From an uncultured Bacteroidota bacterium (GTDB taxonomy: Bacteria; Bacteroidota; Bacteroidia; AKYH767-A; JABDAW01): a DNA stretch of 64,000 nt. The notes below the pieces were generated by a model. That model did not search any database, was not told the DNA's origin, and saw only the letters and a program-made list of their open reading frames with translations. The translations under genes were made by a program, and so were the position numbers. The stretch lies in the NCBI GenBank assembly GCA_903844645.1, contig CAIMUP010000054.1, forward strand, positions 1 through 64,000, read 5' to 3'. This document shows, piece by piece, positions 1 to 62,850 of this stretch; the first letter of the stretch is position 1, and every line of letters starts with the position of its first letter.

Positions 1-326
1 AGGATTACTATTTATGCCTGTAGGATTACTTTTTATGCCTGTAGGATTACTATTTATGCCTGTAGGATTACTTTTTATGCCTGTAGGATTACTTTTTATG
101 CCTGTAGGATTACTTTTTATGCCTGTAGGATTACTTTTTATGCCTGCAGGATTACTTTTTATGCCTGTAGGATTACTTTTTATGCCTGCAGGATTACTTT
201 TTATGCCTGTAGGATTACTATTTATGCCTGTAGGATTACTTTTTATGCCTGTAGGATTACTATTTATGCCTGTAGGATTACTTTTTATGCCTCGAGGATT
301 ACTTTTTATGCCTCGAGGATTACTTT
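1..326. repeat. Tandem array, 21-bp unit, ~15.5 copies (cut by window start)
   Basis: The unit contains the core AGGATTACTTTTTATGCC and recurs every 21 bp without an indel. Variation is limited to single substitutions: CTGTAGG, CTGCAGG and, in the last two copies, CTCGAGG. The array begins before the window. Because 21 is a multiple of three, the stretch reads as an open frame of a seven-residue repeat, but there is no sign that it is a gene. It lies beyond the 3' end of the leftward gene that ends at 631. Confidence 0.95.
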
Positions 327-351
327 TACTATAGTAATGGAACCATTAGTC

Positions 352-524
352 ATGAGTTAAATCCTTTGTTTTGTTTTTTTAACCTTAGTATAAAACAATA
401 CCGAGTTGATTTAACCTTATTAGCCTATTATAAAAAATGAAATAAGGTAATAAGATGGTAGCGCCTAACCTGATTTTATTTATACTAAGGTTAAAAAACA
501 ATCTTATCAACGGATTTAATCTAT
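352..524. repeat. Imperfect inverted repeat, possible MITE-like element or long hairpin
   Basis: A 20-bp segment, TTTTTTAACCTTAGTATAAA at 375-394, returns as a perfect inverted copy at 479-498. The match extends outward imperfectly: GAGTTAAATCC near 354 faces GGATTTAATC near 511. Inside, CCTTATT near 415 faces AATAAGG near 441. The whole could fold into one long imperfect hairpin. No coding sequence is seen in it. It fills most of the gap between the first array and the T9SS gene; 525-630 shows nothing further. Whether it is mobile cannot be judged from one copy. Confidence 0.6.
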
Positions 525-630
525 GACCAAAAACATTTTATATAGGAAAGTGAAAAATCAGTTATGATTTTTCATTGGGGAGGTTATAATTCCTTGTATT
601 AATCATGCAAAGACTTGCGTGGAGGGATGT

Positions 631-3285
631 TTATCGAACGAGATGAACTACACCGTATTTGGTGTGTTTTATCAGCTCGAGATATTCATAAAGCTGGTAA
701 TCTACGCGGTATATATATGTGCCTTCGGGGGCATTTGCGCCGTTGTATGTACCATCCCATCCTGCTGCTATATCTTGCGTCTCGAAAATCAACTCTCCCC
801 AGCGATCGAAGACATAAAGATGAAAGCCGAGAACGCCTACCCCGTATGCCATAAACTTGTTATTGTTTCGATCGCCATTTGGAGAGAATGCGGAGGGAAT
901 ATAAAGATCATTGGGGCAGAATTCCCGAACCAATTTGCTGCTTATTCCGGTGCATCCGTGTGCATCTGTAACGATTACGGTGTATGTTCCGGGCTGTTCG
1001 ATTACTATAAAATGATTGTTGCCACCTGAACTCCAGGCGTAGGAGGTGAATACTTTTCCGGCATCTATTTGTATTTGAGTACCCGGGCATATAAAGGTGT
1101 CGGCACCAAGACTTACGAACACTTCGGGGTATATCTTTACCTCGACGGTATCTGTCCCGATGCAGCCATTATTATTCACCTTGACGATGTATTCTCCCGA
1201 AGCATTGACACGGATGAATTGGGCTGTGCTGCCTGTACTCCATGAATAAAGCATACCGAGATTGCTGACGGAGAGAGCTATATCCATGCCGGCACAAAGA
1301 TAAATGTCTGGACCTAAATTGATATTAGGAGCGGAGCCTATGATAACATTCGCGGTGTCGCTTCCTATACAAGTTCCGTTCATTACCTGAACCCAGTATT
1401 GCCCTGTATTCAACACGCTGATGGTTTGCGTGGTAGAACCATCAGACCATAAGTATGTGGCTCCTGCATTACCAGCATTAAGCAGGACTGATTGTCCGTT
1501 GCAGATAGATTGATCAGGACCGAGATTAACAATCGGTAAGGGGGTGAAGGTTACCTGGATAGTATCCGTTGCAATACAAGTACCGAAGGATGCAAGTACG
1601 ATGTAAGTTCCGTTTGTCGTAGGGTTAATGGTTCTTGTCGTTGCGCCATTAGACCATAGATAAGCGGCACCTGCATTACCTGCATCAATGGTAACAGGTA
1701 TCCCTGCGCAGACGGTAATATCCGCTCCTAAAGTTACTACCGGAGCGGCAACGAAGTTAACGGTAATAGTATCTATATCGCTGCATGTGCCGGCAGTAAC
1801 GGTTACCGAATAATTACTGGTGGTACTTACGGTAATGGTCTGTGTTGTCGCTCCATTAGACCATACGAAAGCAGCTCCTGCATTACCTGCATCAAGCGTG
1901 ATGGTTTGTCCTGTGCAGAGGGTGGTATCATTCCCTAAATTAACGGTTACTGCCGGAAGAATGGTTACAGTTACCGTATCATACTGGGTATTAGAACCAC
2001 AAGTGGTGAAGCCTGTAACGATGACAGAAAATATTCCCGTTGCGGCAACCGATATGGTCTGGGTGGTTTCTCCGGTGGACCATAGATAAGTCGTTGCTCC
2101 TGCTCCGGCATTCAAAGTTACAGGTCCTACGCAAACGGTGGTATCAGAGGGTAAGAAAGAAGTCGTGGTGGAGGCATTTATTGCATCAACAAAGTTCGGT
2201 AAGCCCCCAGCGCAAGTACCAGATATAGTTACGGCATTCGCGGTGTAGTTACATCCGACCCCTACTATATTGGGATTGTTGATTGCATCCAGAGCCGTAT
2301 TCCCATTCCGAGAAACATAGAGCTTACCATCCAAGCCAAGTTGTATTGCACTGAAAGGATAAGTCCCTGTTGCCAGTTGCAACTGCGATGCGATAATGGT
2401 GGCTTGATTGCCTGACGATAAATCGTACTGATAAAGCAATTGCGAAACCCAACATGCGACATATAGAACGTGCCCATTCGGAGAAAAAGAAACTCCATAA
2501 GGATCTCCGATGTTGGTATAATCAATCGTGATAGGGTTTGAAACAACTCCGGTAGAATTGCTAAAATCCAGGATATCTACCTTATCAATACTGTCCCAAA
2601 TTGCGGCAGCCAAACGCGTTCCATCGGGAGAGGCTTTCAAATATCCAATGGTTTCTTCGTAATAACCACTGTTGTTGGTGTATGTGGTCCCGACATGAGA
2701 TACAACAGGTGCGGCAACGCCTGTATTCGATACTAAGTAGGCATAATATATATTGTCGTCAAGCCCATGTGCAATCATCCAAACGTCTGTTCCATTGCAA
2801 TGGCGAACGCAAGTAACTTTCTCGGCAGTGAAGGCGAGGAGATTGAAATTCTTTATCGTAACATCGCCTAAACCTGCATTAAGAGTCATATCCACAATCG
2901 AATAACATAAGCCGAAAGTCCCGCCCATGGCATCGGAAGTGAAGATATAATAAATTGTGGTACTGCCGGGCTTTTGCAGGATTACGCCAGACTGCGTGGA
3001 GGACGAGTTGCCACCCAATCCAAACCCGTTCGACATCTGAATATTGTTGCGATTATAGACCGACATCCCGTCGGTATAGAATAACAGGTTGCCCGTAGCG
3101 TCCGAGATCGTGGCACAGCCCTCATTCGTACTCATGGCGCAGCCCGTAACCGAAACCGGAGAGCCGGAAGTGAAGGTAACGGCGGCATTATTCCCGAAAT
3201 ACCAGTTGTTAGTCTGGGGTTGAGCCTCTCCTATAGTATTCATAAAAAGGAGGGCAACGGCGAGGCAAAAAATTGTTCTGATCAT
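631..3285 (-). CDS. T9SS type B sorting domain (gliding-motility C-terminal) surface protein
   Basis: Large secreted protein of about 884 residues. I start it at the ATG at 3285 rather than the upstream ATG at 3396. The 3285 start gives a clean signal peptide (MIRTIFCLAVALLFMNTIGEA), and a promoter -7 box at 3318-3325 lies between the two starts. After the signal comes a domain of about 350 residues opening with WYFGNNAAVTF and containing GCATISD and LLFYTDG, a beta-propeller-like module common in Bacteroidota. About six Ig/PKD-like repeats of ~80 residues follow, each with a core like YLWSTGETTQTISV. The end is a CHU_C-type domain (IPSAFSPNGD, DRWGELIFET, GWDGTY), the signal for export by the type IX system. 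Ligand and role are unknown; adhesion or gliding is a guess. Confidence 0.9.
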   Translation of the reverse strand: MIRTIFCLAVALLFMNTIGEAQPQTNNWYFGNNAAVTFTSGSPVSVTGCAMSTNEGCATISDATGNLLFYTDGMSVYNRNNIQMSNGFGLGGNSSSTQSGVILQKPGSTTIYYIFTSDAMGGTFGLCYSIVDMTLNAGLGDVTIKNFNLLAFTAEKVTCVRHCNGTDVWMIAHGLDDNIYYAYLVSNTGVAAPVVSHVGTTYTNNSGYYEETIGYLKASPDGTRLAAAIWDSIDKVDILDFSNSTGVVSNPITIDYTNIGDPYGVSFSPNGHVLYVACWVSQLLYQYDLSSGNQATIIASQLQLATGTYPFSAIQLGLDGKLYVSRNGNTALDAINNPNIVGVGCNYTANAVTISGTCAGGLPNFVDAINASTTTSFLPSDTTVCVGPVTLNAGAGATTYLWSTGETTQTISVAATGIFSVIVTGFTTCGSNTQYDTVTVTILPAVTVNLGNDTTLCTGQTITLDAGNAGAAFVWSNGATTQTITVSTTSNYSVTVTAGTCSDIDTITVNFVAAPVVTLGADITVCAGIPVTIDAGNAGAAYLWSNGATTRTINPTTNGTYIVLASFGTCIATDTIQVTFTPLPIVNLGPDQSICNGQSVLLNAGNAGATYLWSDGSTTQTISVLNTGQYWVQVMNGTCIGSDTANVIIGSAPNINLGPDIYLCAGMDIALSVSNLGMLYSWSTGSTAQFIRVNASGEYIVKVNNNGCIGTDTVEVKIYPEVFVSLGADTFICPGTQIQIDAGKVFTSYAWSSGGNNHFIVIEQPGTYTVIVTDAHGCTGISSKLVREFCPNDLYIPSAFSPNGDRNNNKFMAYGVGVLGFHLYVFDRWGELIFETQDIAAGWDGTYNGANAPEGTYIYRVDYQLYEYLELIKHTKYGVVHLVR

Positions 3286-3436: not shown

Positions 3437-3826
3437 CATCTTATCCCAACCGAAGCCTCTACTCGGCAGATGCAAGCCTTTACTCGGGGGATATGACATT
3501 TTACTCGGCGGATATGACATTTTACTCGGCGGATATGACATTTTACTCGGGGGATATGACCTTTTACTGGGGGGATCTAAGACAAATCCGCGTGAATTTG
3601 TCTTACATCCCCCCAGTAAAATGTCATATCCCCCCAGTTTCGGCTTACATCCCGCCAGTAAAATGTTACATCCCGCCAGACCGAAGCCTGCACTCGCCAG
3701 ATGCAAGACTTTACTCGCCAGATCTAACACTATTTCACGCGAAATTGTCTTCGGTCTGGCGAGTAAAGTCTTACATCTGGCGAGTAAAATGTTCGGTCTG
3801 GCGAGTACAGGCTTCGGGTAGGATAA
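3437..3826. repeat. Tandem/inverted array of 21-bp units in alternating orientation
   Basis: Units carry TACTCGGCGGATATGACAT or its variants. Six direct units start at 3460, 3481, 3502, 3523, 3544 and 3565, each exactly 21 bp apart. Four inverted units follow (CCAGT at 3613, 3634, 3655, 3676), then two direct (ACTCG at 3692, 3713), then three inverted (CTGGCG at 3756, 3777, 3798). Two orientation switches have related palindromic centres, CCGCGTGAA near 3587 and TTCACGCGAA near 3734, which are inverse to each other. The outer ends also mirror (CTTATCCCAACCGAAGCCT against AGGCTTCGGGTAGGATAA). The array sits between the divergent promoters of the T9SS gene and atpD. Confidence 0.93.
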
Positions 3827-7016: not shown

Positions 7017-7138
7017 TAAAATTATTAATGAAGATAATACCGAGATTAATGCCATTAATAATGCCTACATTATTCCCTAAAACGGGACTAAAAATCGTCC
7101 TATTTCCAACATTAATTTCCACATTTCCATTAAAACCT

Positions 7139-7288
7139 TCCATGCGAACGTCAAAATCTTCCATGCGAACGTCAAAAGTTTCCATGCGAATGTCAAAAGT
7201 TTCCATGCGAACATCAAAGATTTCCATGCGAACATCAAAGATTTCCATGCGAACACCAAGGATTTCCATGCGAGGGTCGAAAAATGCC
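7139..7288. repeat. Tandem array, 21-bp unit, 7 copies (TTTCCATGCGAAC family)
   Basis: GCGA occurs at 7144, 7165, 7186, 7207, 7228, 7249 and 7270, exactly 21 bp apart. Copies differ by a few substitutions (CGAACGTC, CGAATGTC, CGAACATC, CGAACACC, CGAGGGTC). A second, unrelated 21-bp array begins about 10 bp further on. Confidence 0.95.
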
Positions 7289-7298
7289 GCCAATCACT

Positions 7299-7445
7299 GA
7301 TAAAAATGTGGCTGGCATCGATAAAAATGTGGCTGGGATTGATAAAAACATGGCTGGGATTGATAAAAAGGTGGCTATCTTCGATAAAAAGGTGGCTGGG
7401 ATTGATAAAAAGGTGGCTGGGATTAATGGGAACGTGGCGATTATC
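7299..7445. repeat. Tandem array, 21-bp unit, 7 copies (GATAAAAATGTGGCTGG family)
   Basis: Units start at 7299, 7320, 7341, 7362, 7383, 7404 and, degenerate, 7425; the spacing is 21 bp throughout. The sequence is unrelated to the array just to the left. Both lie between the divergent promoters of the MazG-like gene and the first signal peptidase gene. The stretch 7446-7712 after it holds one -7 box and otherwise nothing I recognise. Confidence 0.95.
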
Positions 7446-7712: not shown

Positions 7713-9179
7713 ATGAAAAAAATTCTTGCGAGATTAAACGACCGGCAGCGGGCTTGGTTTTGGGCATTTACGGTAGGTAATGCTTTATTTTTGGGCTTCA
7801 TTTTGCTATTTGCCGGAGCCGATTTGGTGAATGCGGCATCGCTTTGGGTAATCACCCAATTCCTTGTCGTGGCGTACTATATGAGCATCCAGAATGACAA
7901 AAAACGTGGTGCCGCTCGCGAGTGGTTTGATGCCATTGTGTTCGCCGTTGTGGCAGCTACTATTATCCGTGCATTTTTTCTGGAAGCGTTCACGATTCCT
8001 ACGTCTTCGGAAGAGAAAACGCTGATGATTGGCGACTTTCTTTTCGTGAGTAAATCGAGCTATGGGGCGCGGCTTCCGATGACTCCCATTGCCTTTCCTT
8101 TTGCTCATCATACAATGCCTTTGGTTGGCGGAAAAGCGTATGTCGAATGGCCTCGGATTCCTTATTATCGCTTGCCTGGCTTTGGAAAAATTCAGAATTA
8201 CGATGCCGTTGTGTTTAACTATCCTGATGGTGATACGGTGGCTCTTAATGCGCAGGATCAGAGCTATTATCAGATGTGTCGGGACTATGGTCGTGAGACG
8301 GTTTATCGTGATGATCAGATGAATCCGCAGACAGGTGTGAGCTATTTTGGTAAAGTTGTGGCACGACCCGTTGATAAACGCGAAAACTATATTAAACGCT
8401 GCGTAGCGATTGCCGGCGATACGCTTTTTATCAATCATAAAGATGTATTTATTAATGGCAAACCCGCGCTGAATACAGGGACTATCCAATACAATTATCT
8501 TGTTCGCACGGACGGCAGCGGAATCAACCAAAATATCCATGAAAAGTTTGATATTACAGAGCCAGTGAGGCAAACCCAGAACGGAGATTACGAACTGTTT
8601 CTTCCGAATAACAAGGTGGATGAATTTAAGCAGCTAAGCATGGTAAAATCTATGAAGATTTTGGTTGAAGACAGCGGGATTTATTCTGCACGCATCTTTC
8701 CGCACAGTAAAAATTACGCATGGAATGTCGATAACTTCGGTCCGCTTGTAATCCCTAAAGAAGGCACGACTGTAAGCATTGATACGGCTACTATTGTTCT
8801 CTATGAACGTATCATCGGTGTGTATGAACACAATGATTTGAAGGTGCATGATGGCAAGGTTTTCATTAACGGTAAAGAAAGTCACGCCTATACTTTTAAG
8901 ATGAACTATTTCTGGATGATGGGTGATAATAGGCATAACTCGGCTGACTCTCGCTACTGGGGTTTTGTGCCGCAGGATCATATTGTTGGTAAGGCGGTTT
9001 TCGTATGGATGTCGTTGAAAGAAAATACTGATATAAGCCACAAGTTCCGTTGGAATCGTTTCTTTACATTTGTGCATCCTTATGGTTTATCCCGCTCTTA
9101 TCTGATTCCTTTTCTGATTATCATTGCATCCGTTTGGGTGGGGCTTTTTCTCTACGGCAGAAGAAAGAAGCATTCCTAA
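7713..9179 (+). CDS. lepB: Signal peptidase I, long form with Met-to-Glu change beside the catalytic Ser
   Basis: Inner-membrane serine protease (S26) that cleaves signal peptides of exported proteins; 488 residues. Two N-terminal membrane segments (about residues 17-55) and one near 74-90 precede the active site. The catalytic Ser is Ser99 in FTIPTSSEEKTLMIGDF and the general-base Lys is Lys228 in YIKRCVAIAGD. Box E, MMGDNRHNSADSRYWG, is intact, and a C-terminal membrane segment lies near residue 465. Family members almost always have Met after the catalytic Ser; here it is Glu. Compared with the tandem copy downstream there are about 40 extra residues before the Lys motif. It probably cleaves a distinct substrate set or is less active. 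Confidence 0.93.
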   Translation: MKKILARLNDRQRAWFWAFTVGNALFLGFILLFAGADLVNAASLWVITQFLVVAYYMSIQNDKKRGAAREWFDAIVFAVVAATIIRAFFLEAFTIPTSSEEKTLMIGDFLFVSKSSYGARLPMTPIAFPFAHHTMPLVGGKAYVEWPRIPYYRLPGFGKIQNYDAVVFNYPDGDTVALNAQDQSYYQMCRDYGRETVYRDDQMNPQTGVSYFGKVVARPVDKRENYIKRCVAIAGDTLFINHKDVFINGKPALNTGTIQYNYLVRTDGSGINQNIHEKFDITEPVRQTQNGDYELFLPNNKVDEFKQLSMVKSMKILVEDSGIYSARIFPHSKNYAWNVDNFGPLVIPKEGTTVSIDTATIVLYERIIGVYEHNDLKVHDGKVFINGKESHAYTFKMNYFWMMGDNRHNSADSRYWGFVPQDHIVGKAVFVWMSLKENTDISHKFRWNRFFTFVHPYGLSRSYLIPFLIIIASVWVGLFLYGRRKKHS

Positions 9180-9281
9180 GGTGTAATGGTTTATTGCGGG
9201 AAGGATTGCTATTTTCGCGGCTGTTAAATACTCTTATTTCTTTCGCCTAAACAAAATTTCACAGCTCCCCTACTCTATTCT

Positions 9282-10529
9282 ATGAACCATCGTTTTAAAA
9301 GATTAAACAGAAGACAGAAGCGACGTTTTATAATACTTACACTCCTCAATGTATCCTTCCTTTTCATCCTTTTATTCGGTGCCAAAGCCACAGTGATTAC
9401 CGGATTTACCATCATTCTTATCAACCAATTCTTTCTAACATTATATCATCTTACATTAAACCCAAATGGTGCCAAAACCATTATGGGAGAATGGTTTCAC
9501 GCTATACTCTTCGCCTTGTTGGCAGCTATTTTTCTCCGTTCATTCGTTGTCGAAGCCTTCACAATACCTTCCTCGTCTATGGAGAAAACATTACTCATCG
9601 GAGACTTCATCTTCGTCAGCAAAATCAACTACGGTCCTCGCATTCCGATGACTCCCCTTGCCCTCCCTTTCACACATCATTCCCTGCCATATAAAGGTTG
9701 GAAGGCTTACATAGAATGGCTTAAAATTCCTTACTATCGTTTGCCCGGGTTATGGCATATTCGCAACAACGATGTGGTCGTATTCAACTATCCGATGGAG
9801 GATTATCGCCCTGTAGATAAACGCGAACATTATATCAAGCGTTGTGTCGCTATTCCTGGTGATGAAATGATGATTATTCATGGTACAATTTCCATTAACA
9901 ACCGTCGCCTACCCCTGCCACATCACGCTTTACAGATGTATCATGCCAAGACAGATGATATAGCATTCTTCGATGATAGCATACGCCATGTAGAGGCGTA
10001 TGCACCACAATTAATCTCTAATCAGGGTGATTATCTCGTGCCGATTTCTATGGATGGATTAAAGCAGATTAATACTCTTAAAAACGTAACACATATCGAA
10101 CGACTAACCGATGAAGAAGTCAGCCATTATTATCAAACCTCCCTCTTTCCGTATGATAAGTTTCACAATTATCAGATAGATAATTTCGGTCCTATAAAGA
10201 TACCGCGACGAGGCGATACCGTTTATCTTAATCATAGTAATATCGCACTATACAAACGTATCATCGAGGTTTACGAGAACCATAAACTCGAAGAAAAAGA
10301 TGATAAAATCTATATAGACAATGTCGAAACTTCGCGGTATATCTTCGCGATGGACTACTACTTTATGATGGGCGACAATCGCTATAATTCCGAGGACTCG
10401 CGCTTCTGGGGTTTCGTTCCCGAAGACCATATTGTAGGCAAAGCAAGCATGATATGGATGTCGTGGGATAAAGAAGCCGCGGGGTTAGCCAAGATTCGCT
10501 GGCGACGACTATTTCGCTTCATTAATTAG
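9282..10529 (+). CDS. lepB: Signal peptidase I, second tandem copy
   Basis: A 415-residue S26 peptidase about 100 bp downstream of its paralogue, in the same direction. It has two N-terminal membrane segments, the canonical Ser99 in FTIPSSSMEKTLLIGDF, Lys186 in YIKRCVAIPGD, and MMGDNRYNSEDSRFWG. The C-terminus stops at the last catalytic strand, without the extra membrane segment of the first copy. With the usual Ser-Met pair kept, this is the more likely housekeeping enzyme. The intergenic 9180-9281 has a TATTTTCG sequence at 9210 that could be a weak -7 box. The organism exports many large T9SS proteins, which first need signal peptidase. Confidence 0.93.
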   Translation: MNHRFKRLNRRQKRRFIILTLLNVSFLFILLFGAKATVITGFTIILINQFFLTLYHLTLNPNGAKTIMGEWFHAILFALLAAIFLRSFVVEAFTIPSSSMEKTLLIGDFIFVSKINYGPRIPMTPLALPFTHHSLPYKGWKAYIEWLKIPYYRLPGLWHIRNNDVVVFNYPMEDYRPVDKREHYIKRCVAIPGDEMMIIHGTISINNRRLPLPHHALQMYHAKTDDIAFFDDSIRHVEAYAPQLISNQGDYLVPISMDGLKQINTLKNVTHIERLTDEEVSHYYQTSLFPYDKFHNYQIDNFGPIKIPRRGDTVYLNHSNIALYKRIIEVYENHKLEEKDDKIYIDNVETSRYIFAMDYYFMMGDNRYNSEDSRFWGFVPEDHIVGKASMIWMSWDKEAAGLAKIRWRRLFRFIN

Positions 10530-10607: not shown

Positions 10608-12155
10608 TCATATCTTCACCACCTTCCTCACCACCTTCTCGTTATCCATAACCACCTCCAAGAAATAGATGCCTTGCAAGAGTGTGCTTACATCAATTCT
10701 CAACGCTCCATTCTCAACTCTCAATTCCCCCAGCATCTTTTCTCCCAGCATATCATAAAGATTAATGGTGCATGATTTTATGTTTTTATCGGGGAGGGAG
10801 ATGGTGAGGAGATTGGTGGCGGGGTTGGGGTAGATGGAAATGTCTTCAGTTGCTTTTATTTCATTAATACCAGTACTAAAGCATGAAGTTGTAACTATGC
10901 CTCCACTTCCAACTGTTTTTGATGGATTGCTAACCATACAACCTGAATGAATAATAGTTGAAGTGTTTGAAACTTGGAATGGAATAGAATAAAGATTAAT
11001 TGTGGGGTCTGTCTGCAAGCATCCGCTATTTCCATTTTCATCAGTCTTTATCAATAACATATTCCCTGCTGTTTCTCCAGCAATAATATAACCTCCATCA
11101 GTTGATTGCTGAACATAATAACCGATATTGTACCCTGGTGCTCCATCCAAATAATGTTTCGCCCATAAAGTTTCACCAATTGAATTTGTTTTAATCAACA
11201 AAGGTTCATAATAGGGATCAATAGGATTTACAGTAATACCTACCATAATATATCCACCATCTGAAGTCTGTTGTACAGAATAGGCATAATCAGTACCACT
11301 CCCATACTTGCCATAAGCCTTTGTCCATAATGTATCACCTATCGAATTTGTTTTGATTAAATAAATACGGTTACCAAAATTACTCATTCCTGTAATAATA
11401 TAGCCCCCATCTGAAGTTTGTTTAACTGAATATCCGTAATCATAATATATGCTACCATAAGTCTTTGTCCATAAGGTATCTCCTATTGAATCTGTTTTAA
11501 TTAAATAAACATCATCGCTTCCAGCACCGAAACTTTTGGTATAACCTGCAATAATATATCCGCCATCCGTAGTCAATTCAATTGATTTTGCCCCGTCATC
11601 ATTAATGCCACCATAAGTTTTTGTCCATAAAGTATCACCAATAGAATTTGTTTTAATTAAGAACACATCAACACCTCCTGCACCCAGACTATCTGTTGTC
11701 CCTGCAATTATAAATCCATTATCCATGGTTTGCCTGACAGAATATCCATAATCATTACCTGCACTCCCATAACTTTTTGTCCATAAAGTATCTCCATTAG
11801 AATTCGTTTTGATTAAGTAAATATGAACAGGAACAGAAGTAGAATTTTCTGTAATTCCTGCAATAACATACCCTCCATCATTTGTTTGTTGAACCGAATA
11901 TCCTTTATGATAGTCAACCGCATTACCATAAGTTCTTGTCCATAAAGTGTCTCCATTAGCATCAGTCTTTACTAAATAAATATAAGATTCAATATATCCA
12001 GTCATAATGTATCCTCCATCTGATGTTTGTTGCACTGCATAGGCTTCTCCATAACAAAAATTACAACTATTATAGGTTTTATGAAAGGTTATTTGTGCCT
12101 GCGTGCTCAAGGCAAGGATGGCGAACACGATTAAGATTAGTAAAGATTTTTTCAT
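10608..12155 (-). CDS. T9SS type A sorting domain protein with ~50-residue repeats
   Basis: Secreted protein of 515 residues. I prefer the ATG at 12155 (MKKSLLILIVFAILALSTQAQ) over one two codons upstream at 12161. The body consists of about seven repeats with the core LIKTNSIGDTLWTKTYG followed by GYSVQQTSDGGYIIAG, which looks like a beta-propeller-type fold of unknown ligand. The C-terminus is a type A T9SS signal (ISIYPNPATNLLTISL ... QGIYFLEVVMDNEKVVRKVVK). A close paralogue is encoded at 45474-46991 on the other strand. Just before the C-terminal strands this copy has LRVENGALRI, absent from the paralogue. -7 box at 12203-12210. Confidence 0.9.
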   Translation of the reverse strand: MKKSLLILIVFAILALSTQAQITFHKTYNSCNFCYGEAYAVQQTSDGGYIMTGYIESYIYLVKTDANGDTLWTRTYGNAVDYHKGYSVQQTNDGGYVIAGITENSTSVPVHIYLIKTNSNGDTLWTKSYGSAGNDYGYSVRQTMDNGFIIAGTTDSLGAGGVDVFLIKTNSIGDTLWTKTYGGINDDGAKSIELTTDGGYIIAGYTKSFGAGSDDVYLIKTDSIGDTLWTKTYGSIYYDYGYSVKQTSDGGYIITGMSNFGNRIYLIKTNSIGDTLWTKAYGKYGSGTDYAYSVQQTSDGGYIMVGITVNPIDPYYEPLLIKTNSIGETLWAKHYLDGAPGYNIGYYVQQSTDGGYIIAGETAGNMLLIKTDENGNSGCLQTDPTINLYSIPFQVSNTSTIIHSGCMVSNPSKTVGSGGIVTTSCFSTGINEIKATEDISIYPNPATNLLTISLPDKNIKSCTINLYDMLGEKMLGELRVENGALRIDVSTLLQGIYFLEVVMDNEKVVRKVVKI

Positions 12156-12202
12156 CCGCATTAAGTTTTAGTTTTTAATGATTCATCAAATATTTAGAGC
12201 AG

Positions 12203-12210
12203 CAAAAGTA
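12203..12210 (-). promoter_or_regulatory. Bacteroidota -7 box (TACTTTTG)
   Basis: Matches TAnnTTTG on the minus strand 48 bp before the T9SS protein start; it lies on the gene side of the adjoining array. Confidence 0.5.
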
Positions 12211-12243: not shown

Positions 12244-12432
12244 AAGCGACGATTGCAAAAAAGTATGCGAATATCGCAATCTGCAAGCGTGGAATGCAAA
12301 AAAGTATGCGGATATTCCAAAAATGTATGCGAGGATTGCAATTAAGTGAGCGACGAATGCAATTAGGTAAGCGACGAATGCAAATTGCAAGCGAGTATTG
12401 CAATTAGGTAAGCGACGAATGCAATTATGTAC
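12244..12432. repeat. Tandem array, 21-bp unit with two 20-bp members, 9 copies
   Basis: Units begin with GCG at 12246, 12267, 12287, 12308, 12329, 12350, 12371, 12391 and 12412. Spacings are 21, 20, 21, 21, 21, 21, 20, 21. The core is GCGACGAATGCAATTAGGTA with considerable divergence between copies. Both 20-bp units end in TGCAA where the others have one more base. It lies between the divergent T9SS and helicase genes. Confidence 0.9.
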
Positions 12433-21640: not shown

Positions 21641-21691
21641 GACCATTTTCGGTATATTTTAAGGCTTTTATCAGCGAATGAAAGGAATCGC

Positions 21692-45086: not shown

Positions 45087-45380
45087 ATGTAACACGACAC
45101 AGTTGGAATGTAACGCGTTACATTTTGAATCCGTTGCCACAGACTGTGGTTTCGTTCGAACGAAACCCCAGTATGATGCCATCGGTTTGAACATCCAGAC
45201 GAAGATCTTGAGTTTCGTTCGTCTGAAACCAAAAACCGTTCGAACGAAACCCGGCTTCGTTCGAACGAAACCAAAATGTAACACGACACACTTGGAATGT
45301 AGCACGTGTTTTTTCGAATCCGTTCCAACGAAAACCATTTTCATTCGAACAGAAACCATTTCCGTTCGAACAGAATCGGT
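45087..45380. repeat. Heterogeneous array of 14 units in strict 21-bp register
   Basis: Fourteen consecutive 21-bp blocks can be laid out from 45087 with no indel. Three kinds of unit alternate: ATGTAACACGACAC-type (units 1, 2, 10, 11), ATCCGTTGCC-type (3, 12), and TTCGTTCGAACGAAACC-type (4, 7, 8, 9, 13, 14), plus two unlike ones (5, 6). Units 1-4 recur as 10-13, a higher-order step of 189 bp (9 x 21). Perfect palindromes include ATGTAACGCGTTACAT at 45108-45123 and GGTTTCGTTCGAACGAAACC at 45148-45167. It lies between two divergent promoters. Confidence 0.93.
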
Positions 45381-45421
45381 TGTATGGTGAGCACTTTTTT
45401 TGGGATTGATGGAATTATCCA

Positions 45422-45429
45422 TACTTTTG
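45422..45429 (+). promoter_or_regulatory. Bacteroidota -7 box (TACTTTTG)
   Basis: Matches TAnnTTTG, followed by CTGCTTG, 45 bp before the T9SS protein start at 45474 and on the gene side of the array. Confidence 0.5.
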
Positions 45430-45473
45430 CTGCTTGAATAATTTAATGAATCCTTAATAAAAATTTTAATCTC

Positions 45474-49601: not shown

Positions 49602-49686
49602 AGGTATGTCATCTGTAAAAAAACAGATGCCTCCCAGAAGTTCAGGTATGCCATCTGTAAAAAAAAGATGCCATTCCTCATAAAAA
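49602..49686. repeat. Two-copy repeat, 42-bp unit, with internal dyad
   Basis: AGGTATGTCATCTGTAAAAA at 49602 recurs as AGGTATGCCATCTGTAAAAA at 49644, exactly 42 bp later. Each copy has CATCTGT-A7-ACAGATG-like complementarity, so each could fold. It lies between the promoter of the TPR gene and the terminator of the large T9SS gene. Copy number is low, so on its own it would be unremarkable; the 42-bp step links it to the other arrays. Confidence 0.7.
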
Positions 49687-49725
49687 GGAAATGCCCCACG
49701 AAGATTCCTCGCGGGGCATTTATTT
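49685..49725 (-). terminator. Rho-independent terminator of the large T9SS gene
   Basis: AAATGCCCCACG at 49689-49700 and CGCGGGGCATTT at 49710-49721 form a 12-bp stem with one mismatch. The A-rich left flank becomes a U-rich tail on the minus strand. Confidence 0.85.
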
Positions 49726-49741
49726 AGGGAATCGGATTCCT

Positions 49742-53893: not shown

Positions 53894-53989
53894 CCCCTAC
53901 ACCATCTCAATCTTCCCATTCACCTTCAACCCAAGCATCACAATTAATAGTATCCGTGTTTTCATCTTCATTAATTTTTTTGTGAATGG

Positions 53990-53997
53990 CAAAAGTA
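53990..53997 (-). promoter_or_regulatory. Bacteroidota -7 box (TACTTTTG)
   Basis: Matches TAnnTTTG on the minus strand ~97 bp before the zinc-ribbon protein start and on the gene side of the neighbouring array. Confidence 0.45.
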
Positions 53998-54107
53998 GGA
54001 AAAAGGAAATGATTTCCGCAAGTGTCATTTTGAGAAAAGTTCCTTTTTATACTTGAAAATCGGGTTTTATAACGGGAAAAAGAGACAACACAGCACTTGG
54101 CAACCCG

Positions 54108-54290
54108 CTAACACGTGTGGGGGTGTTGGCAACACGTGTGGGGGTGTTGCTCACATGTGTGAGGGTGTTGCTCACACGTGTGGGGGTGTTGCTCACACGT
54201 GTGGGGGTGTTGCTCACACGTGTGGGGGTGTTGCTCACACGTGTGAGGGTGTTGCTAACACGTGTGAGGGTGTTGCTAACATTAGTGAGC
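54108..54290. repeat. Tandem array, 21-bp unit, 8 copies (ACACGTGTGGGGGTGTTGCT family)
   Basis: ACACGTGT, a perfect 8-bp palindrome, or the variant ACATGTGT recurs from 54111 every 21 bp, followed by GGGGGTGTTG or GAGGGTGTTG. The strongly G-rich strand is the plus strand. A decayed ninth unit (ACATTAGTGAG) ends the array. It lies between the zinc-ribbon gene's promoter and the terminator of the next leftward gene. Confidence 0.95.
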
Positions 54291-54382: not shown

Positions 54383-55192
54383 TTATTTTGCTCTTACTGC
54401 AATAATCTGACTTTCTCTTACGAACACACCATGAGCGACTTCGACGACAGAAACATTCTGCATTTCTCCGGAAACCAAACCGTCAAAATGACCATGTCCA
54501 ATGTCGGTCCCTAGTGCATATGAGAAGGAGGTTCTTGCGGCATTCCAAAATTTTACACTATAGCAACATCCTCGTGGTCCTATAGGAAAATGTAAATCTA
54601 TTGAACCGACAATTGCACCTGTTTCTCCTCCAAATATTTGGGCACTTTTTCCGCCCCTGCCCTGCGCATGATAGCCATAATGGACACAAATTATTAAACT
54701 TTGTGGCTTATTGGCGTCCATTGCGTCCTGTATAATCCGCATCAAAAGCTTCAGCTTTGTATTCAACTGATCCCAGGCATAATCAACTTGAGCTTCGCCT
54801 ACAGCAGCGCGAAGGTTGGCTATAAGAGGAGTAAGGGCAAGGAGTTGTCCGGGAGGTATTGTGACGTAAGTCGTAGATGCTCCTTTATCACGAATACTCT
54901 CTGCTAATTTTGCCTTGCCTTCGACAGCATCAGGAGCACTGATAGTGGCGGTAATGACGGGGTTTGGATTCGGTACCGACATCAAAACAATGGGTATTCC
55001 TTTCTCTAATTTCAGTCCCGTTCCGTGGTCATTGGTCAGGATAATAATGCAATTCTCGAAGCCCTTTCGTTGCCTCAATTTTTTGGCAAAAGTTCTGCCG
55101 ATGTTGGTGTTCGGGAAGGAAAATTTCAGACCTTCCCCCGTAGGATTTACTTCCGATGCCACTACCTTTTTCCACTCCAGGATGTAGGACAT
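54383..55192 (-). CDS. Hypothetical protein
   Basis: About 269 residues from ATG 55192 (MSYILEWKKVVASEVNPTGE); an ATG at 55228 would add a hydrophobic stretch IVTFVIVIM that could be a weak signal anchor. I do not recognise the family. A segment RKGFENCIIILTNDHGTGLK near residue 43 is followed by KTKLAESIRDKG-like helices, a helical pair in the middle (VDYAWDQLNTKLKLLMRIIQ), and strand-rich C-terminal sequence (SVVEVAHGVFVRESQIIAVRAK). It has a strong terminator and no operon partner. Confidence 0.7.
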   Translation of the reverse strand: MSYILEWKKVVASEVNPTGEGLKFSFPNTNIGRTFAKKLRQRKGFENCIIILTNDHGTGLKLEKGIPIVLMSVPNPNPVITATISAPDAVEGKAKLAESIRDKGASTTYVTIPPGQLLALTPLIANLRAAVGEAQVDYAWDQLNTKLKLLMRIIQDAMDANKPQSLIICVHYGYHAQGRGGKSAQIFGGETGAIVGSIDLHFPIGPRGCCYSVKFWNAARTSFSYALGTDIGHGHFDGLVSGEMQNVSVVEVAHGVFVRESQIIAVRAK

Positions 55193-55484
55193 GATTACAA
55201 TTACAAATGTTACGATTTTGTTGTTCATTTTTTTTTTAATTTTTAAATTATTATTATTTTTAGGATTTGTTTAGACTCGTTTGCATTCAGTGGGATTCCC
55301 ATTCGCGCTTACCAGTTTACCAAACCGCAGGAGGAAGTCGAAGAATTCGATGGGACAAATTTAGAAAACTAAATGGAAAAAAGAATCGAAAGATTTTTCA
55401 ATCCCTTTTATGGAATCCTTTTCTCTTTTGCATCTTATCCTCAAAAGATAAATATTCCAAACAATAATTTAATAAATTAAGACA

Positions 55485-58400
55485 ATGAAAAAGAAAAATG
55501 TAATCCGTAAAATTGTGAGCCTTGCCTTTGTGATGGCAATCGTATTTGGGGCAATGAGCCTTATTAAAGCAAGTGGTTATTTCCAACAGGAAGTAGAGAA
55601 TGACTTCATCAAGAAAGCGAAAAACAAGTTTGTTGCTGCGAATGACAAACTACCTGAAGACCGCGTGTACATGCAGTTTGACAAACCATTCTACAAACCT
55701 GGTGAGACTATTTGGTTTGCTGCTTATCTGCGCAATGGCAAGGACTTTACTCCTTCCGAAAAGAGTGATATTCTTCATGTCCAATTGATTGGTCCGAAGG
55801 GAAATGTGGAGAAAGAAATCAAAGTAATCGGGAAGAATGGAAAAACTGTTGGCGATTTCACATTAGGTGCTGAATCTCCTGGTGGTTTATACAAAGTAAA
55901 GGCATTTACCAACTGGCAAAAGAATGAAACGGACACTGTTTTCTTTGAAAAAGAATTGACTGTGCAGGATGTTGTTTTGCCTAATCTTAAAATGAAATTG
56001 GACTTTGAACGTAAAGCCTTTGGTCCCGGTGATGAAGTGATTGCTAAGTTGGAATTAAATACCAATGAGAACCAACCTTTGGCGAATTATAATTTTAAAT
56101 ATATCGCTAATCTTGAAGGGAAAAAATTATTGGAAAGTACTGCTGTTACAGGAAATGATGGAGTGATGTACATTCGGTTTAAACTGCCTGAAACATTGAA
56201 AACTAATGATGGCTTGGTGAATGTTCTGATAGATTATCAAGGACAAACGGAATCTGTTTCTCGTTCAATTCCGATTGTATTAAACAACATCAATTTTGCC
56301 ATGTATCCAGAGGGTGGTGATTTGGTTAATGGCTTGGAAAGTCGCGTTGCATTTAAGGCTTTGAATGAGTTTGGGAAGCCCGCAGATGTTGAAGGAGATG
56401 TCTTTGATTCTAATAATAAATTAATGAGTCATTTCGCGAGTTATCATCAAGGTATGGGAGCATTTAATATCAAGCCAGATGGTGGAAAGAAGTATTATGT
56501 AAAGATAGACAAGCCTGAAAATATCAATACCAAATATGATCTCCCAGAGCCGATGCCAAGAGGGTATGTTATCAGTACTGATAATGTTAATCCCAATGAA
56601 TTAGTATTGAATGTAAAGTCAACAGAGACCGAAGAGTTGAACATTATTGCACAAACAAGAGGAAAGATTTGTTATGCAACTTCCTTTGCCGCAAATGCAG
56701 GGAATAATAAACTAATTTTACCAACAAATCAGTTCCCGATTGGTGTTTCTCAAATAACTTTATTCGATTCTAAAGGTGTGGAAAGAGCAGAACGTTTGGT
56801 CTTCTTAAATAAGAACAAACAATTGTCCATAGCAATAGAAACTGATAAGGAAAAATATCTGCCAAGAGAGAAAGTAAAGATGACTGTTACCATAAGAGAT
56901 GATCGCGGAATGCCAATGCCGGCAAGTGTTTCCATGTCTGTGGTTAATGATCAATTGCTTTCATTTGCTGATGATAAGTCAGGGAATATTTTATCAAAAT
57001 TGCTTTTAGAAAATGATATAAAAGAAAAAGTCGAAGAGCCTGCTTTCTACTTTAATACCAAAGAACCAAAAGCCGATGTAGCATTAGATTACTTAATGAT
57101 GACAGCGGGTTGGAGAAGATTCACCTGGAAGAAAATTCTTGATAACGACTTGCCTAATGTAGCCTTCCAAGGCGAGAAAGCAGTACTGTCAGGAACTATT
57201 ATTGATCAAAATAATGCCAAGCCAATATCAAAAGCAACTATTAAGATAAATGGTAAGGATCAAACAATAGCTGTTAATGAAAAAGGAAAGTTTTCAATAG
57301 ATAAAATAGATCTTACATCACCAGTTAATTTAGCAATAACTGCCGAAGGTTATACACCTCAAACCATTGCTGTATATGATTACAAGCCCGATGCCAAATA
57401 TTATCTCAATGATGTGAACAGAGTTGTTTATACACGTGCGGAAGGAATGGTTCAACAGGACTTTCAGGCACAACCAAATATGGCAGCACCTGCTCCAGCA
57501 ATGGGAGCAATGCAATGGAAGGCACAAGATCAGGTTGTGAATGTTCCTCGTAAAGCAATGGCTAATAAAAGCGCTGTTCCCATGGCTAAACCAAGTCCTG
57601 ATAAGAAGAAAGATAACGGTATTGATCATCAAAAACCTCAAGAAGAACACCTTGCGAAGAATGCAGTTGTTAATGCTAAAGCAGGCAAGAAAATGATGCT
57701 TGCAGAAAAGGATGAAGCGCGTGCTTTCAGAGGAAATGGCTTTGCAAGATTGAATGCAAAAGATAATGCTGAATTTGTTAATGATGAAATGCTTGAACAA
57801 CCCAATCAACAGGTTAAGCCCGTCATCGGATATTATCGTGCTAAAGAATTTCCTAATACTGTCTATACTACTTCCAATGAAAATGTTGTTCGTAATGACT
57901 TTCGTTCTACAATTTATTGGAATGGGAACATTGAAATTGATAGGACTGGCAAGGGTTCTGTGGAGTTTTATAATTCTGATGATATAAGTTCGTTCCGTAC
58001 CACTGTCGAAGGTATTTCTTCTGACGGAATGATCGGTAGAACCGAGAAAACTTACTTCACTCAATTGCCTTTTGCCATGACTGTCAAGGCTCCTAATGAA
58101 GTTGCTACGGAAGATAAAGTTTTTATTCCTCTTACTTTAAAGAATAACACTACTAATAACATCACTGGCAGCCTTACAATCAAGGCTCCGCAAGGGTTTA
58201 AAGAGCTTACTCCTATTGCAACTTCTCAAACATTAGCTGCGGGACAAGTAAAGGTTATTTATTTAGATTATCAAGTCCTTAATACCACTGGAGATGGTGA
58301 TCTTGACATCGCTTTCAATAGTTCGGGATTGAATGATGAATTCACTTCCAAGATAAAGATTGTTGCTAAAGGATTTCCTGTTACTCTTTCCTTCTCCGGC

Positions 58401-59957
58401 AAGGAAATGAGCAAGGAATACAACATAGATATTCAGAATATGGTGAATGGTTCGCTCACTGCCCAACTCACCGCATTCCCTTCTGTGGTAAGCGATTTGA
58501 CAAAGGGTGTTGAAGGTATTCTTCGTGAACCTGGTGGTTGTTTCGAGCAGACTTCTATGAGTTCTTATCCTAATGTTATGGTCTTGAATTACCTTAAAGA
58601 AACCGATACCAAAGATGAAAAATTATTAGCCAGTGCAAGTGGCTTCGTTGACAGAGGTTATAAGAAATTAACTACATTTGAAACTAAAGAAAAGGGATAT
58701 GAATGGTTCGGTGGTGCCCCTGCTCACGAGGCTTTGACTGCTTATGGTCTCATGCAATTCAATGATATGAAAGGAGTTGAAAAGAATGTGGATCAAAAGA
58801 TGATTGATCGCACTGCAGATTGGTTAATGAGTCGCAGGGATGGTAATGGAAGCTTCAAGCGCAATCCAAGGGCTTTAGATAACTTTGGTGGAGCTTCTGA
58901 AGACATTACTAATGCCTACATTATTTATGCTCTTACCGATGCCGGTTATACTGATTTAGATAAAGAAATCACTCAAGCCAACAAGAAGGCATTAGGTAGC
59001 AAAGACCCCTACCAGCTTGCTCTTCTCGCCAATACTCTTTTCAAAAAGAAGGATAATACAAGGGCTGAAAAGGTGCTTACAGACCTTCTTTCCAAGCAAC
59101 AAAAAGATGGTAGCTGGACTGGTACATCGTCTTCCATTACCCGATCTGGCGGGCAAAGCCTTACTATCGAAACTACTTCCCTTGCAATCCTTGCTATCAT
59201 TAAAAGTTCTGGAAATAACAATGAATCATTGAATAAAGCCATTCAATATTTAGTCGGTGCGCGCAGTGGTTACGGGGCTTTCGGCTCTACTCAAGGAACT
59301 ATTCTTGCTCTTAAAGCCTTAACCGAGTATGCTAAATTCTCTAAGCATACTAATGAAGATGGAACCATTGAATTTTATGTTGATGGCAAGAAAGTTTCTG
59401 AAAAATCGTATAAAGCGGGAGACAAAAACGCTATTGTTTTAGACAGTTTGAACAGATATATCAAACCTGGCAAACACGATTTGAAAGTGAAGTATGTTGG
59501 ATGCAAGAACCCTCTCCCCTACTCTATCGCGGTCACATACAATACTTCGCTTCCCAACTCTTCAAAGGATTGCAAGGTGGCTATTGAAACAAAATTATTT
59601 ACTAATTCGATCAAAGCCGGAGAGACGGTTCGCCTCGCCACAACCCTTACCAATACTACGAAAGATGGACTTCCCTCTACGATGGCTGTGATAGGAATTC
59701 CCGCAGGACTTTCGCCACAACCCTGGCAGTTAAAGGAGATGCAAGAGAAACATATCTTCGATTATTATGAAATTAAGGGCAATACCGTCATCTGTTATTA
59801 CCGCCAGATGGCACCTTCCGAAGTTAAGAATATCAACTTCGATTTAAAGGCTGATATTCCCGGAACCTTTGATTCACCGGCTTCTTCGGCTTACCTTTAT
59901 TATACCAACGAGTTCAAATGTTGGACATCCACGGGCAAAGTAACCGTGAGAAATTAA
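55485..59957 (+). CDS. Alpha-2-macroglobulin family protein with thioester motif
   Basis: A 1490-residue envelope protein, anchored or exported by an N-terminal hydrophobic segment (VSLAFVMAIVFGAMSLI). Macroglobulin-like MG domains begin at DRVYMQFDKPFYKPGETIWFAA (near residue 58). A carboxypeptidase-regulatory-like fold (LSGTIIDQNNAKPISKATI) is inserted near residue 570, followed by an Ala/Met/Lys-rich linker near 660-760. The A2M core and thioester GGCFEQ with Cys1019 follow, then the alpha-helical thioester domain and receptor-like C-terminus. Bacterial relatives trap attacking proteases covalently. The usual partner penicillin-binding protein 1C gene is not adjacent. Confidence 0.93.
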   Translation: MKKKNVIRKIVSLAFVMAIVFGAMSLIKASGYFQQEVENDFIKKAKNKFVAANDKLPEDRVYMQFDKPFYKPGETIWFAAYLRNGKDFTPSEKSDILHVQLIGPKGNVEKEIKVIGKNGKTVGDFTLGAESPGGLYKVKAFTNWQKNETDTVFFEKELTVQDVVLPNLKMKLDFERKAFGPGDEVIAKLELNTNENQPLANYNFKYIANLEGKKLLESTAVTGNDGVMYIRFKLPETLKTNDGLVNVLIDYQGQTESVSRSIPIVLNNINFAMYPEGGDLVNGLESRVAFKALNEFGKPADVEGDVFDSNNKLMSHFASYHQGMGAFNIKPDGGKKYYVKIDKPENINTKYDLPEPMPRGYVISTDNVNPNELVLNVKSTETEELNIIAQTRGKICYATSFAANAGNNKLILPTNQFPIGVSQITLFDSKGVERAERLVFLNKNKQLSIAIETDKEKYLPREKVKMTVTIRDDRGMPMPASVSMSVVNDQLLSFADDKSGNILSKLLLENDIKEKVEEPAFYFNTKEPKADVALDYLMMTAGWRRFTWKKILDNDLPNVAFQGEKAVLSGTIIDQNNAKPISKATIKINGKDQTIAVNEKGKFSIDKIDLTSPVNLAITAEGYTPQTIAVYDYKPDAKYYLNDVNRVVYTRAEGMVQQDFQAQPNMAAPAPAMGAMQWKAQDQVVNVPRKAMANKSAVPMAKPSPDKKKDNGIDHQKPQEEHLAKNAVVNAKAGKKMMLAEKDEARAFRGNGFARLNAKDNAEFVNDEMLEQPNQQVKPVIGYYRAKEFPNTVYTTSNENVVRNDFRSTIYWNGNIEIDRTGKGSVEFYNSDDISSFRTTVEGISSDGMIGRTEKTYFTQLPFAMTVKAPNEVATEDKVFIPLTLKNNTTNNITGSLTIKAPQGFKELTPIATSQTLAAGQVKVIYLDYQVLNTTGDGDLDIAFNSSGLNDEFTSKIKIVAKGFPVTLSFSGKEMSKEYNIDIQNMVNGSLTAQLTAFPSVVSDLTKGVEGILREPGGCFEQTSMSSYPNVMVLNYLKETDTKDEKLLASASGFVDRGYKKLTTFETKEKGYEWFGGAPAHEALTAYGLMQFNDMKGVEKNVDQKMIDRTADWLMSRRDGNGSFKRNPRALDNFGGASEDITNAYIIYALTDAGYTDLDKEITQANKKALGSKDPYQLALLANTLFKKKDNTRAEKVLTDLLSKQQKDGSWTGTSSSITRSGGQSLTIETTSLAILAIIKSSGNNNESLNKAIQYLVGARSGYGAFGSTQGTILALKALTEYAKFSKHTNEDGTIEFYVDGKKVSEKSYKAGDKNAIVLDSLNRYIKPGKHDLKVKYVGCKNPLPYSIAVTYNTSLPNSSKDCKVAIETKLFTNSIKAGETVRLATTLTNTTKDGLPSTMAVIGIPAGLSPQPWQLKEMQEKHIFDYYEIKGNTVICYYRQMAPSEVKNINFDLKADIPGTFDSPASSAYLYYTNEFKCWTSTGKVTVRN

Positions 59958-60477: not shown

Positions 60478-60628
60478 GCAACTGTAATATTGACTAATTA
60501 CACTAAAATACTGACTAAATACACTATAATACTGATTATTTACACTGTAATATTGACTAAAGACACTGTAATAATGAATAGCGCAACTGTAATAGAGAAT
60601 AACTACACTTTAATAGTGATTACAAAAA
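60478..60628. repeat. Tandem array, 21-bp unit, 7 copies (ACTGTAATATTGACTAA family)
   Basis: ACT marks units at 60481, 60502, 60523, 60544, 60565, 60586 and 60607, exactly 21 bp apart. Sequence identity between copies falls to about two thirds, yet there is no indel. The centre of several copies is TAATATT, a dyad. It lies between the XRE gene promoter and the 3' end of the MFS gene. Confidence 0.93.
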
Positions 60629-62227: not shown

Positions 62228-62257
62228 TTGTCAATTCAAAAATTCTCCGTAACTTTG
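62228..62257 (+). promoter_or_regulatory. Full-consensus promoter TTG-N19-TAACTTTG
   Basis: TTG at 62228-62230, exactly 19 bp, then TAACTTTG at 62250-62257. This is the complete Bacteroidota housekeeping (sigma-ABfr) promoter pattern. The start of the small protein is 64 bp downstream, giving a leader of about 55 nt. Confidence 0.75.
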
Positions 62258-62320
62258 CATTATAATTCGATTTTACCTCTTTGTTACAAGTTCATTTTTT
62301 AAGATAAATACAAACAAAAT

Positions 62321-62620
62321 ATGAGACATCCTGACTGTTACTTTCACGAATTTCACCGCCCCGGAACCAAAGTTGAATTGTATTTGGAAGAAAGCCGCGA
62401 GCCCATGATTGGCGTTATTGTGCGGTTAATTCCGAATATTGCGAAGGTAATTAATGGAAAAACGCACTCTATTAGTATTGTTATTTTTGTGAAGGAGGAG
62501 GATTATTTTGATTATTCTCAAACCGAGCAAACTCGTGCTGATAAGGATAAATTTGGCATGAAAATACCTGCTGATACCATCGAAAAGGTGGAATTTCAGA
62601 TTAGTAAAATCGTATTCTAA
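62321..62620 (+). CDS. Small conserved-looking hypothetical protein
   Basis: A 99-residue protein without signal peptide (MRHPDCYFHEFHRPGTKVEL). Strand-rich: VELYLEESREPMIGVIVRLI, then SISIVIFVKEEDYFDYSQTE and a closing VEFQISKIVF. I do not recognise the family. The excellent promoter 64 bp upstream and its regular codon use make it a real gene. It is followed by a 21-bp array and then the next gene's promoter. Confidence 0.75.
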   Translation: MRHPDCYFHEFHRPGTKVELYLEESREPMIGVIVRLIPNIAKVINGKTHSISIVIFVKEEDYFDYSQTEQTRADKDKFGMKIPADTIEKVEFQISKIVF

Positions 62621-62697
62621 TTCCTTAAAACTCCCGTTATTAACCTCAAATTCCAATAATACTTCAGGAATTACAGTAAATGGGCGTCGTTTTTTAT

Positions 62698-62850
62698 TCT
62701 AACAAGTTTTCAGACGTCTCTGGAAAGTTTTCAGACGCCTCTGAAAAGTTTTCAGACGCCTCTGGAAAGTTTTCAGACACCTCTGGAAAGTTTTCAGACA
62801 CCTCTGGAAAGTTTTTAGACACCTCTGGAAAGTCGTTAGAATGCTCTAAA
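62698..62850. repeat. Tandem array, 21-bp unit, 7 copies (TTTTCAGACGCCTCTGGAAA family)
   Basis: CAGAC marks units at 62711, 62732, 62753, 62774 and 62795, with decayed TAGAC at 62816 and TAGAA at 62837; all steps are 21 bp. Each unit holds a dyad, TTTCAGA-CGCC-TCTGGAAA, covering most of it. It lies upstream of the promoter at 63012. Confidence 0.95.

Follow-up and report, generated by a model that had tools for sequence, protein, structure and literature searches.

In plasmid iterons and partition-site arrays, direct repeats with a unit of roughly two turns of DNA bring the binding sites onto the same helical face, and in integron attC sites the sequence varies while the folded or dyad structure is kept. 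Direct repeats of the heptamer TAACTGA, constant in sequence and in most sets located just upstream of start codons, have been described in Beggiatoaceae, Cyanobacteria and some Bacteroidetes (PMC4679880). Our literature searches, which covered subscription papers thinly, found no described family of the kind reported below. Whereas intergenic elements are usually identified through a conserved sequence, in the present case it is pitch and symmetry that appear to be conserved, and such a class would therefore be missed by sequence-based searches for repeats or motifs.

The window, i.e. the whole stretch of 64,000 nucleotides analysed here, belongs to a genome of 3.84 Mb (G000), of which 0.996 Mb was sampled for arrays; two other members of the genus (G001 and G002, one genome per species), a family mate (G003) and 80 order-level loci were also included. 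An earlier note had listed 18 intergenic arrays in the window, with constant unit length and a different sequence at every locus, and 16 of them were borne out by Tandem Repeats Finder (TRF) and by an independent autocorrelation scan. The array placed at 18970 was not recovered, since 18970-19180 lacks a 21-bp signal and its lag-21 identity (0.32) is that of background. At 49602 the 42-bp copies do exist, but there are only two of them, with a lag-42 identity of 0.44 over 49602-49740. The array at 45087 repeats only weakly in sequence, with a lag-21 identity of 0.46, yet it contains unlike palindromes in exact 21-bp register, their centres within 45087-45400 being at 45115.5, 45157.5 and 45262.5. 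The only lags below 100 with at least 70% identity over 63 bp in the window were 21, 42, 63 and 84, plus 15 positions at lag 62 that are due to a one-base slip in the 12.2-kb array. The arrays, none of which is assigned a strand, are as follows.

1-327: 21-bp array AGGATTACTTTTTATGCCTGT, truncated where the window begins; 95% matches in TRF; related array in L212
3460-3817: 21-bp array with core 3460-3576 TACTCGGCGGATATGACATTT, the units decayed to about 3817
7107-7288: 21-bp array TTCCATGCGAACGTCAAAAAT
7294-7438: 21/42/63-bp array TGATAAAAAGGTGGCTGGGAT, adjoining the array at 7107-7288
12244-12431: 21-bp array with one-base slips GCGAGGAATGCAAATAAGTAT
17582-17852: 21-bp array GTGATGTTGTAATAGTTCCGT
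21436-21649: 42-bp array CGGGAGCCTGGCTCATGCTCCCGTATATTTTGGCGATGCTCC, stem CGGGAGC/GCTCCCG; in G001 (L288) an unrelated 21-bp array lies beside the end of the orthologous gene
24988-25268: 21-bp array TTTGAGCCAAACGTATTCAAG, 72-96% identical to at least five further arrays in the genome
27754-27894: 21-bp array TGGATTCCGACTTCGATAAGA; the orthologous gene in G001 (L292) adjoins an unrelated array
31512-31754: 42-bp array with palindromes AAGGAAGTTTCCTT and GCGAGCCCTCGC 21.0 bp apart; L194 and G002 L270 contain homologous 42-mers
39500-39723: 42-bp array GGTATAATTTTTTTCGCGGATACCCCTGCAACACCTTGCAAC; relative at C69:20190
39829-40093: 42-bp array AAGATCATGTCTTATGGAATTCCAAATAATGCTCGGTGGAAC
45087-45400: mosaic array of unlike palindromes TGTAACGCGTTACA and GGTTTCGTTCGAACGAAACC, centres in 21-bp register
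49602-49685: weak two-copy 42-bp remnant
54107-54281: 21-bp array GCTCACACGTGTGGGGGTGTT with palindrome CACACGTGTG, beyond the terminator of gene 54383-55228 (minus strand); a 90% identical array lies in G001 C197, and the orthologous gene in G002 (L252) adjoins a different 21-bp array
60481-60622: 21-bp array ACTGTAATATTGACTAATTAC; the orthologous gene in G001 (L220) adjoins an unrelated 42-bp array
62704-62853: 21-bp array AAGTTTTCAGACGCCTCTGGA, which G001 lacks at the orthologous site; relatives at C119:33497 and C52:3194

The sharp peak at 21 and 42 bp in non-coding DNA that had been named beforehand as support was observed in G000, where the sample contained 168 period-21 and 41 period-42 arrays (209 together) and about six non-coding arrays of other periods (two of period 20 and single ones of periods 43, 73, 83 and 104). 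The non-coding autocorrelation z values at 21 and 42 were 21.6 and 21.2 in G000, 12.0 and 17.1 in G001, and 12.0 and 10.5 in G002; there was no such peak in G003 (2.3 and 0.7) or in the 80 order-level loci (1.9 and 0.7). Among the sampled genomes the peak is restricted to the genus, whose members are uncultured bacteria of the order Flavobacteriales. In it a short array occupies the majority of the longer intergenic gaps, always with a pitch of 21 or 42 bp, with letters that differ by locus and with a tendency to one palindrome per 21 bp, and constant length with free sequence extends from the window to a class found in G000, G001 and G002. That three separately assembled genomes share the peak, and that the arrays lie inside contigs with unlike flanks, argues against an assembly artefact. 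True 7-bp arrays are also present in G002.

The arrays are located between transcription units and upstream of promoters. They occupy 145 of 619 gaps, nearly always one per gap, and are present in 63 of the 71 convergent or divergent gaps of 400-3000 bp. In 86 of 159 cases the promoter box TAnnTTTGC separates the array from the gene, and in 9 it lies beyond the array, a count that overturned a first impression, gained from L194 and L268, that the array lies in the 5' untranslated region. The GC content was 42.5% in arrays versus 35.0% in other intergenic DNA.

Palindromes in the array units had been missed by the earlier note; the palindromic units, their compensatory pairing and a second dyad 21.0 bp away in 42-bp units with unlike halves are new in this analysis. 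Stems of at least 6 bp were present in 21% of the units in G000, 16% in G001 and 11% in G002, against 1-4% in units shuffled by mono- or dinucleotide (2-3% beside the 21% of G000). Compensatory changes maintain the pairing: variation within arrays was lower at paired positions (0.076 versus 0.135), and double changes at these positions numbered 25, against 11 under independence, 18 of the 25 restoring the pair. Similar 42-bp units showed 27 double changes versus 12.7 expected (20 compensatory), and at one orthologous place ATTCCAGAATTCTGGAAT stands opposite ATCCTGAAACTTCAGGAT, with four compensated pairs. The central base pairs of the dyads are relaxed, which fits both hairpins and dimer sites, and no base consensus, not even a weak common one, was found at the dyads.

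When the two halves of a 42-bp unit are unrelated, a second dyad occurs at exactly +21.0 bp (z 6.6, and 4.8-5.9 with one unit per family), the array-free intergenic control being flat, and this gives independent support to the previous suggestion that 21 bp matters as two helical turns. The symmetric point at +10.5 bp showed no enrichment in 21-bp units, and therefore the pitch of the axes is 21 in both unit classes. Global reverse-palindromicity was rejected as the source of the +21 dyad, because pairing was at baseline by k=13 and the +10.5 point was unenriched in 21-mers. Curved DNA or A-tract phasing was likewise rejected, as 21-mers lack self-similarity at shift 10, and so was a heptamer origin, as they lack it at shift 7 (0.228).

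The best explanation, to which we give a probability of about 0.4, is that the arrays are boundary DNA in which one two-fold axis for every two turns of the helix is conserved and to which a putative symmetric architectural protein binds. The property under conservation would be geometry and not sequence, namely a palindromic axis every ~21 bp (two turns of B-DNA) tiled over about 4-13 units. We infer that such a DNA-binding protein, a putative dimer, sits on one axis after the next on the same side of the helix, and that the docked protein may form a short patch marking or insulating the boundary of a transcription unit. New arrays would be generated through tandem amplification on the spot or copied from existing ones, their units being homogenised in mid-array and decaying at the edges, and changes that keep pitch and dyad would be tolerated, so that the sequence is rewritten while the geometry is retained. 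An even chance is given to the broader statement that the genus possesses an intergenic class with geometric heritable information, i.e. a two-fold axis per two turns with the sequence essentially free; either a symmetric architectural protein would read this information, or it would be imposed by an amplification enzyme dedicated to the task and measuring 21 bp.

Several observations count against the boundary model. The distance from array to promoter shows no phasing, more than half of the 21-bp units lack a dyad of at least 5 bp, and the model does not explain how one symmetric protein would accept so many half-site sequences. Comparison of orthologous gene sides revealed 11 arrays in common and 17 that differ between G000 and G001, and 7 in common and 25 that differ between G000 and G002; this low conservation of occupancy fits poorly with a strong need at each locus. 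A search for binding proteins or enzymes of the arrays yielded none, and HU and LytTR showed no expansion that would provide a candidate.

The main rival, tentative but substantial, dispenses with function: some replication or recombination activity that depends on structure and is confined to the genus would repeatedly duplicate or copy ~21-nt hairpin-forming segments, and the arrays would accumulate where they are harmless, between transcription units and outside promoters and genes, and then decay. In agreement with it, units 95-96% identical occur at unrelated loci with the homology stopping at the array edge, array edges are decayed, array-free gaps keep a weak 21-bp echo, and presence versus absence between congeners coincides with long versus very short gaps. 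Array sequence at orthologous places is mostly unrelated, which also favours this rival. Arrays are gained, lost and rewritten between species. For at least a third of them, relatives exist at other places in the genome, frequently lacking common flanks; the claim of a different sequence at every locus is thus true within the window but not fully so genome-wide, a recognisable relative elsewhere in the sample being seen for 79 of 213 arrays, a count that includes some contig ends that may belong to one and the same physical array. A mobile element with fixed ends was rejected, the cleanest related pairs having no common flanks. Amplification alone accounts neither for the exact 21.0-bp spacing of unrelated palindromes nor for the reduced variation of paired positions and their compensatory changes, unless both are imposed by the activity. 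Nor did the RAYT or reverse transcriptase proposed earlier find a counterpart in an expansion of such genes, as G000 contains one short Y1-transposase match (Y1_Tnp, 80 residues within a 113-aa frame) and zero RVT_1 matches.

Descent as ordinary minisatellites, with a 21-bp unit inherited from one ancestral array and diverging afterwards in sequence, is unlikely. The homogenised middles and the families of related arrays at 72-96% identity speak for it, but most units resemble one another no more than shuffled units do, and divergence to randomness without drift of the period (three 20- or 43-bp arrays in the 1-Mb sample) requires a constraint on length beyond plain descent. It also leaves the dyads and their spacing unexplained, and is already weakened by the period counts, the unit similarity and the dyad spacing.

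Less probable still are transcribed hairpin arrays acting at the RNA level, as bidirectional terminators or in 3'-end protection. The location between transcription units would suit them, as would an RNA folding energy below that of column-shuffled arrays in 75% of cases, but this energy is equal in sense and antisense, without strand preference, and about half of the divergent gaps hold an array, which there lies upstream of both genes. Stems followed by a T-run, as in intrinsic terminators, are rare inside arrays (4 of 131 gene ends), there is no Rfam match within the window, and RNA has no need of an exact dyad pitch. Translation into seven-residue repeats, suggested by 21 being seven codons and by open frames slightly commoner than in column-shuffled arrays (2.92 versus 2.36 of six), has hardly any likelihood and is already refuted for the bulk of the arrays, the coding test proposed earlier having come out in the note's favour, as the best open frame shows no synonymous excess (0.321 versus a null of 0.352) and open frames are equal on both strands (1.51 of three sense, 1.43 antisense), although single cases could still be translated.

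The arrays make it possible to test in nature whether selection on DNA can act on helical phasing and dyads by themselves, as well as to study the birth, spread and death of satellite-like arrays in a bacterium, and the orthologous places already show their rewriting between species. Like REP/BIME elements with RAYT (Y1) transposases, they are dispersed intergenic palindromes, many per genome, but REPs have one common palindromic sequence, which was not seen here, half of the 21-bp units being singletons and most unit pairs having shuffled similarity, and a linked transposase, on which side G000 has the one short Y1_Tnp match. Unlike integron attC sites, they are tandem at a 21-bp pitch, with no common core sites seen and no cassettes. 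With the TAACTGA repeats (PMC4679880) they share abundance as intergenic direct repeats at many loci per genome, and 21 is three heptamers, but they are free in sequence, lack a 7-bp substructure and lie upstream of promoters. Whereas plasmid iterons and partition arrays occupy one or few loci, next to a rep or par gene and with one sequence per protein, the present arrays occupy hundreds of loci with different sequences. Finally, they resemble bacterial VNTRs and minisatellites in their head-to-tail units, which abut without unique spacers of the CRISPR kind, in their homogenised middles and decayed edges, and in their gain and loss; unlike VNTRs, whose periods vary, they keep one pitch over hundreds of loci with unrelated units and form a genus-wide class with dyads in 21-bp register.

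Over 0.996 Mb of the window's own genome (3.84 Mb in 143 contigs, 98.7% complete), arrays with a 21-bp period number 168 and those with a 42-bp period 41, as against about six non-coding arrays with any other period. Extrapolation gives ~800 of the 21- and 42-bp arrays in the whole genome, usually of 4-13 units each. The sharp 21/42-bp peak predicted in the earlier note was observed by autocorrelation of non-coding DNA in this genome and in two others of the genus (G001 and G002, the latter 58% complete), and it was absent from the non-coding DNA of the family mate G003 and of 80 order-level loci. Sixteen of the 18 arrays that the note lists for the window were recovered by TRF and an autocorrelation scan, but 18970 is not an array and 49602 is a two-copy remnant; the supposed mixture of unit types at 45087 is indeed a mosaic. 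Many contigs of the window's genome start or stop within arrays (the sampled loci L119:1, L127:1, L201:1 and L213:1, among others), indicating that arrays fragment the assembly and that their real number may be higher. True 7-bp arrays (CTATTCA/CTGTTCA) accompany the 21-bp arrays at five G002 loci (L159, L161, L252, L253 and L261), and 7-bp signals are present in G003 too.

The arrays were found not to be coding, no RNA strand bias was seen, and their surroundings in the window are ordinary chromosomal genes; the relatives of DnaA at 64-72% identity belong mainly to Flavobacteriales and other Bacteroidetes genomes. Other features of the window are as follows.
7713-10529: pair of adjacent signal peptidase S26 genes
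10612-12210 and 45422-46988: 76% identical, each encoding a protein that carries a C-terminal type IX secretion signal
25880-25961: 82 bp, identical in G001 (C117:8235-8316) whereas interspecies coding DNA is ~70% identical, and 99% identical on another contig of the same genome (C63:9521); read on the minus strand, it resembles a short C-terminal protein segment (...KRKGMSIETIEKWLGPNLSY); Rfam gave no match above threshold
35720-35832: intergenic, array-free, near-perfect inverted repeat with arms of ~50 bp (TAGGACATGGATAAAAA..TTTTTATCCATGTCCTA); similar sequence in G002 (C17, C8)
53934-54022: ~90 bp spanning the promoter box and initial codons at the start of a DUF4379-domain gene, with ~20 occurrences in the genome, which suggests a gene family sharing leaders
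55485-59957: bacterial alpha-2-macroglobulin-like gene, 1490 aa

Palindromic dyads within the units far exceed shuffled controls in all three genomes of the genus. Pairing is enriched up to ~7 positions away from the centre in both directions, the central pair itself being relaxed, and no base consensus was found at the dyads. Paired positions are less variable, and double changes tend to re-establish pairing both within arrays and between similar ones, although between arrays of 21-bp units the effect is weaker (119 double changes versus 87.5 expected, from non-independent pairs that include chance look-alikes). The two halves of a 42-bp unit average only 39% identity (25% in shuffled units), and where the halves are unrelated a second dyad lies at +21.0 bp. 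A self-reverse-complementary 42-bp periodicity would place a dyad there by symmetry alone, but pairing is at baseline by k=13 and the equivalent +10.5 point is unenriched in 21-bp units. The same spacing behaviour is seen in a single place in the 45087 mosaic, where TGTAACGCGTTACA (centre 45115.5) and GGTTTCGTTCGAACGAAACC (centre 45157.5) lie 42.0 bp apart.

The claim that different arrays share no sequence held for 130 of 255 21-bp units, for which no relative passed the threshold, and the majority of unit pairs resemble each other only as much as shuffled units do, but the remaining units form small families. Array 24988 has at least five relatives in the genome (72-96% identity). Homology stops at the array edge in the cleanest pairs (L179:11157/L202:5759 and window 24988/L138:5268) and continues into the flanks in other pairs. 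For array 54107, G001 has a counterpart at 90% identity; conservation there includes ~25 bp of flanking DNA, but the neighbouring gene is apparently a different one. Of the orthologous gene sides with an array, 18 have one in both species and 42 in one species only, presence and absence matching long versus very short gaps. Unit sequences were unrelated in 15-16 of the 18 shared cases (e.g. window 21436 versus the G001 locus L288) and clearly related in two, one of them with four compensated pairs. Array edges are decayed, and a weak 21-bp echo persists in array-free gaps. Taken together, these differences in occupancy, unrelated shared units and traces of decay indicate that 21-bp arrays fill, rewrite and erode gaps within the genus.

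Arrays occupy 29 of the 89 gaps between convergent genes, 43 of the 85 between divergent genes and 73 of the 445 between co-directional genes; these counts are approximate because genes were our own hexamer-scored ORFs. An occupied gap nearly always holds one array, very few convergent or divergent gaps of at least 400 bp lack one, and arrays lie upstream of the promoter box at variable distance. We consider the array class and its geometric regularities established. On our reading, unit length and symmetry are under constraint, and sequence is free. A function-free, structure-dependent amplification process is a serious contender for their origin, close behind a protein-based explanation because array occupancy is poorly conserved and neither a protein nor an enzyme was found. 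We tentatively favour (probability about 0.4) a symmetric protein acting on arrays at transcription-unit boundaries, where it would dock once every two helical turns.
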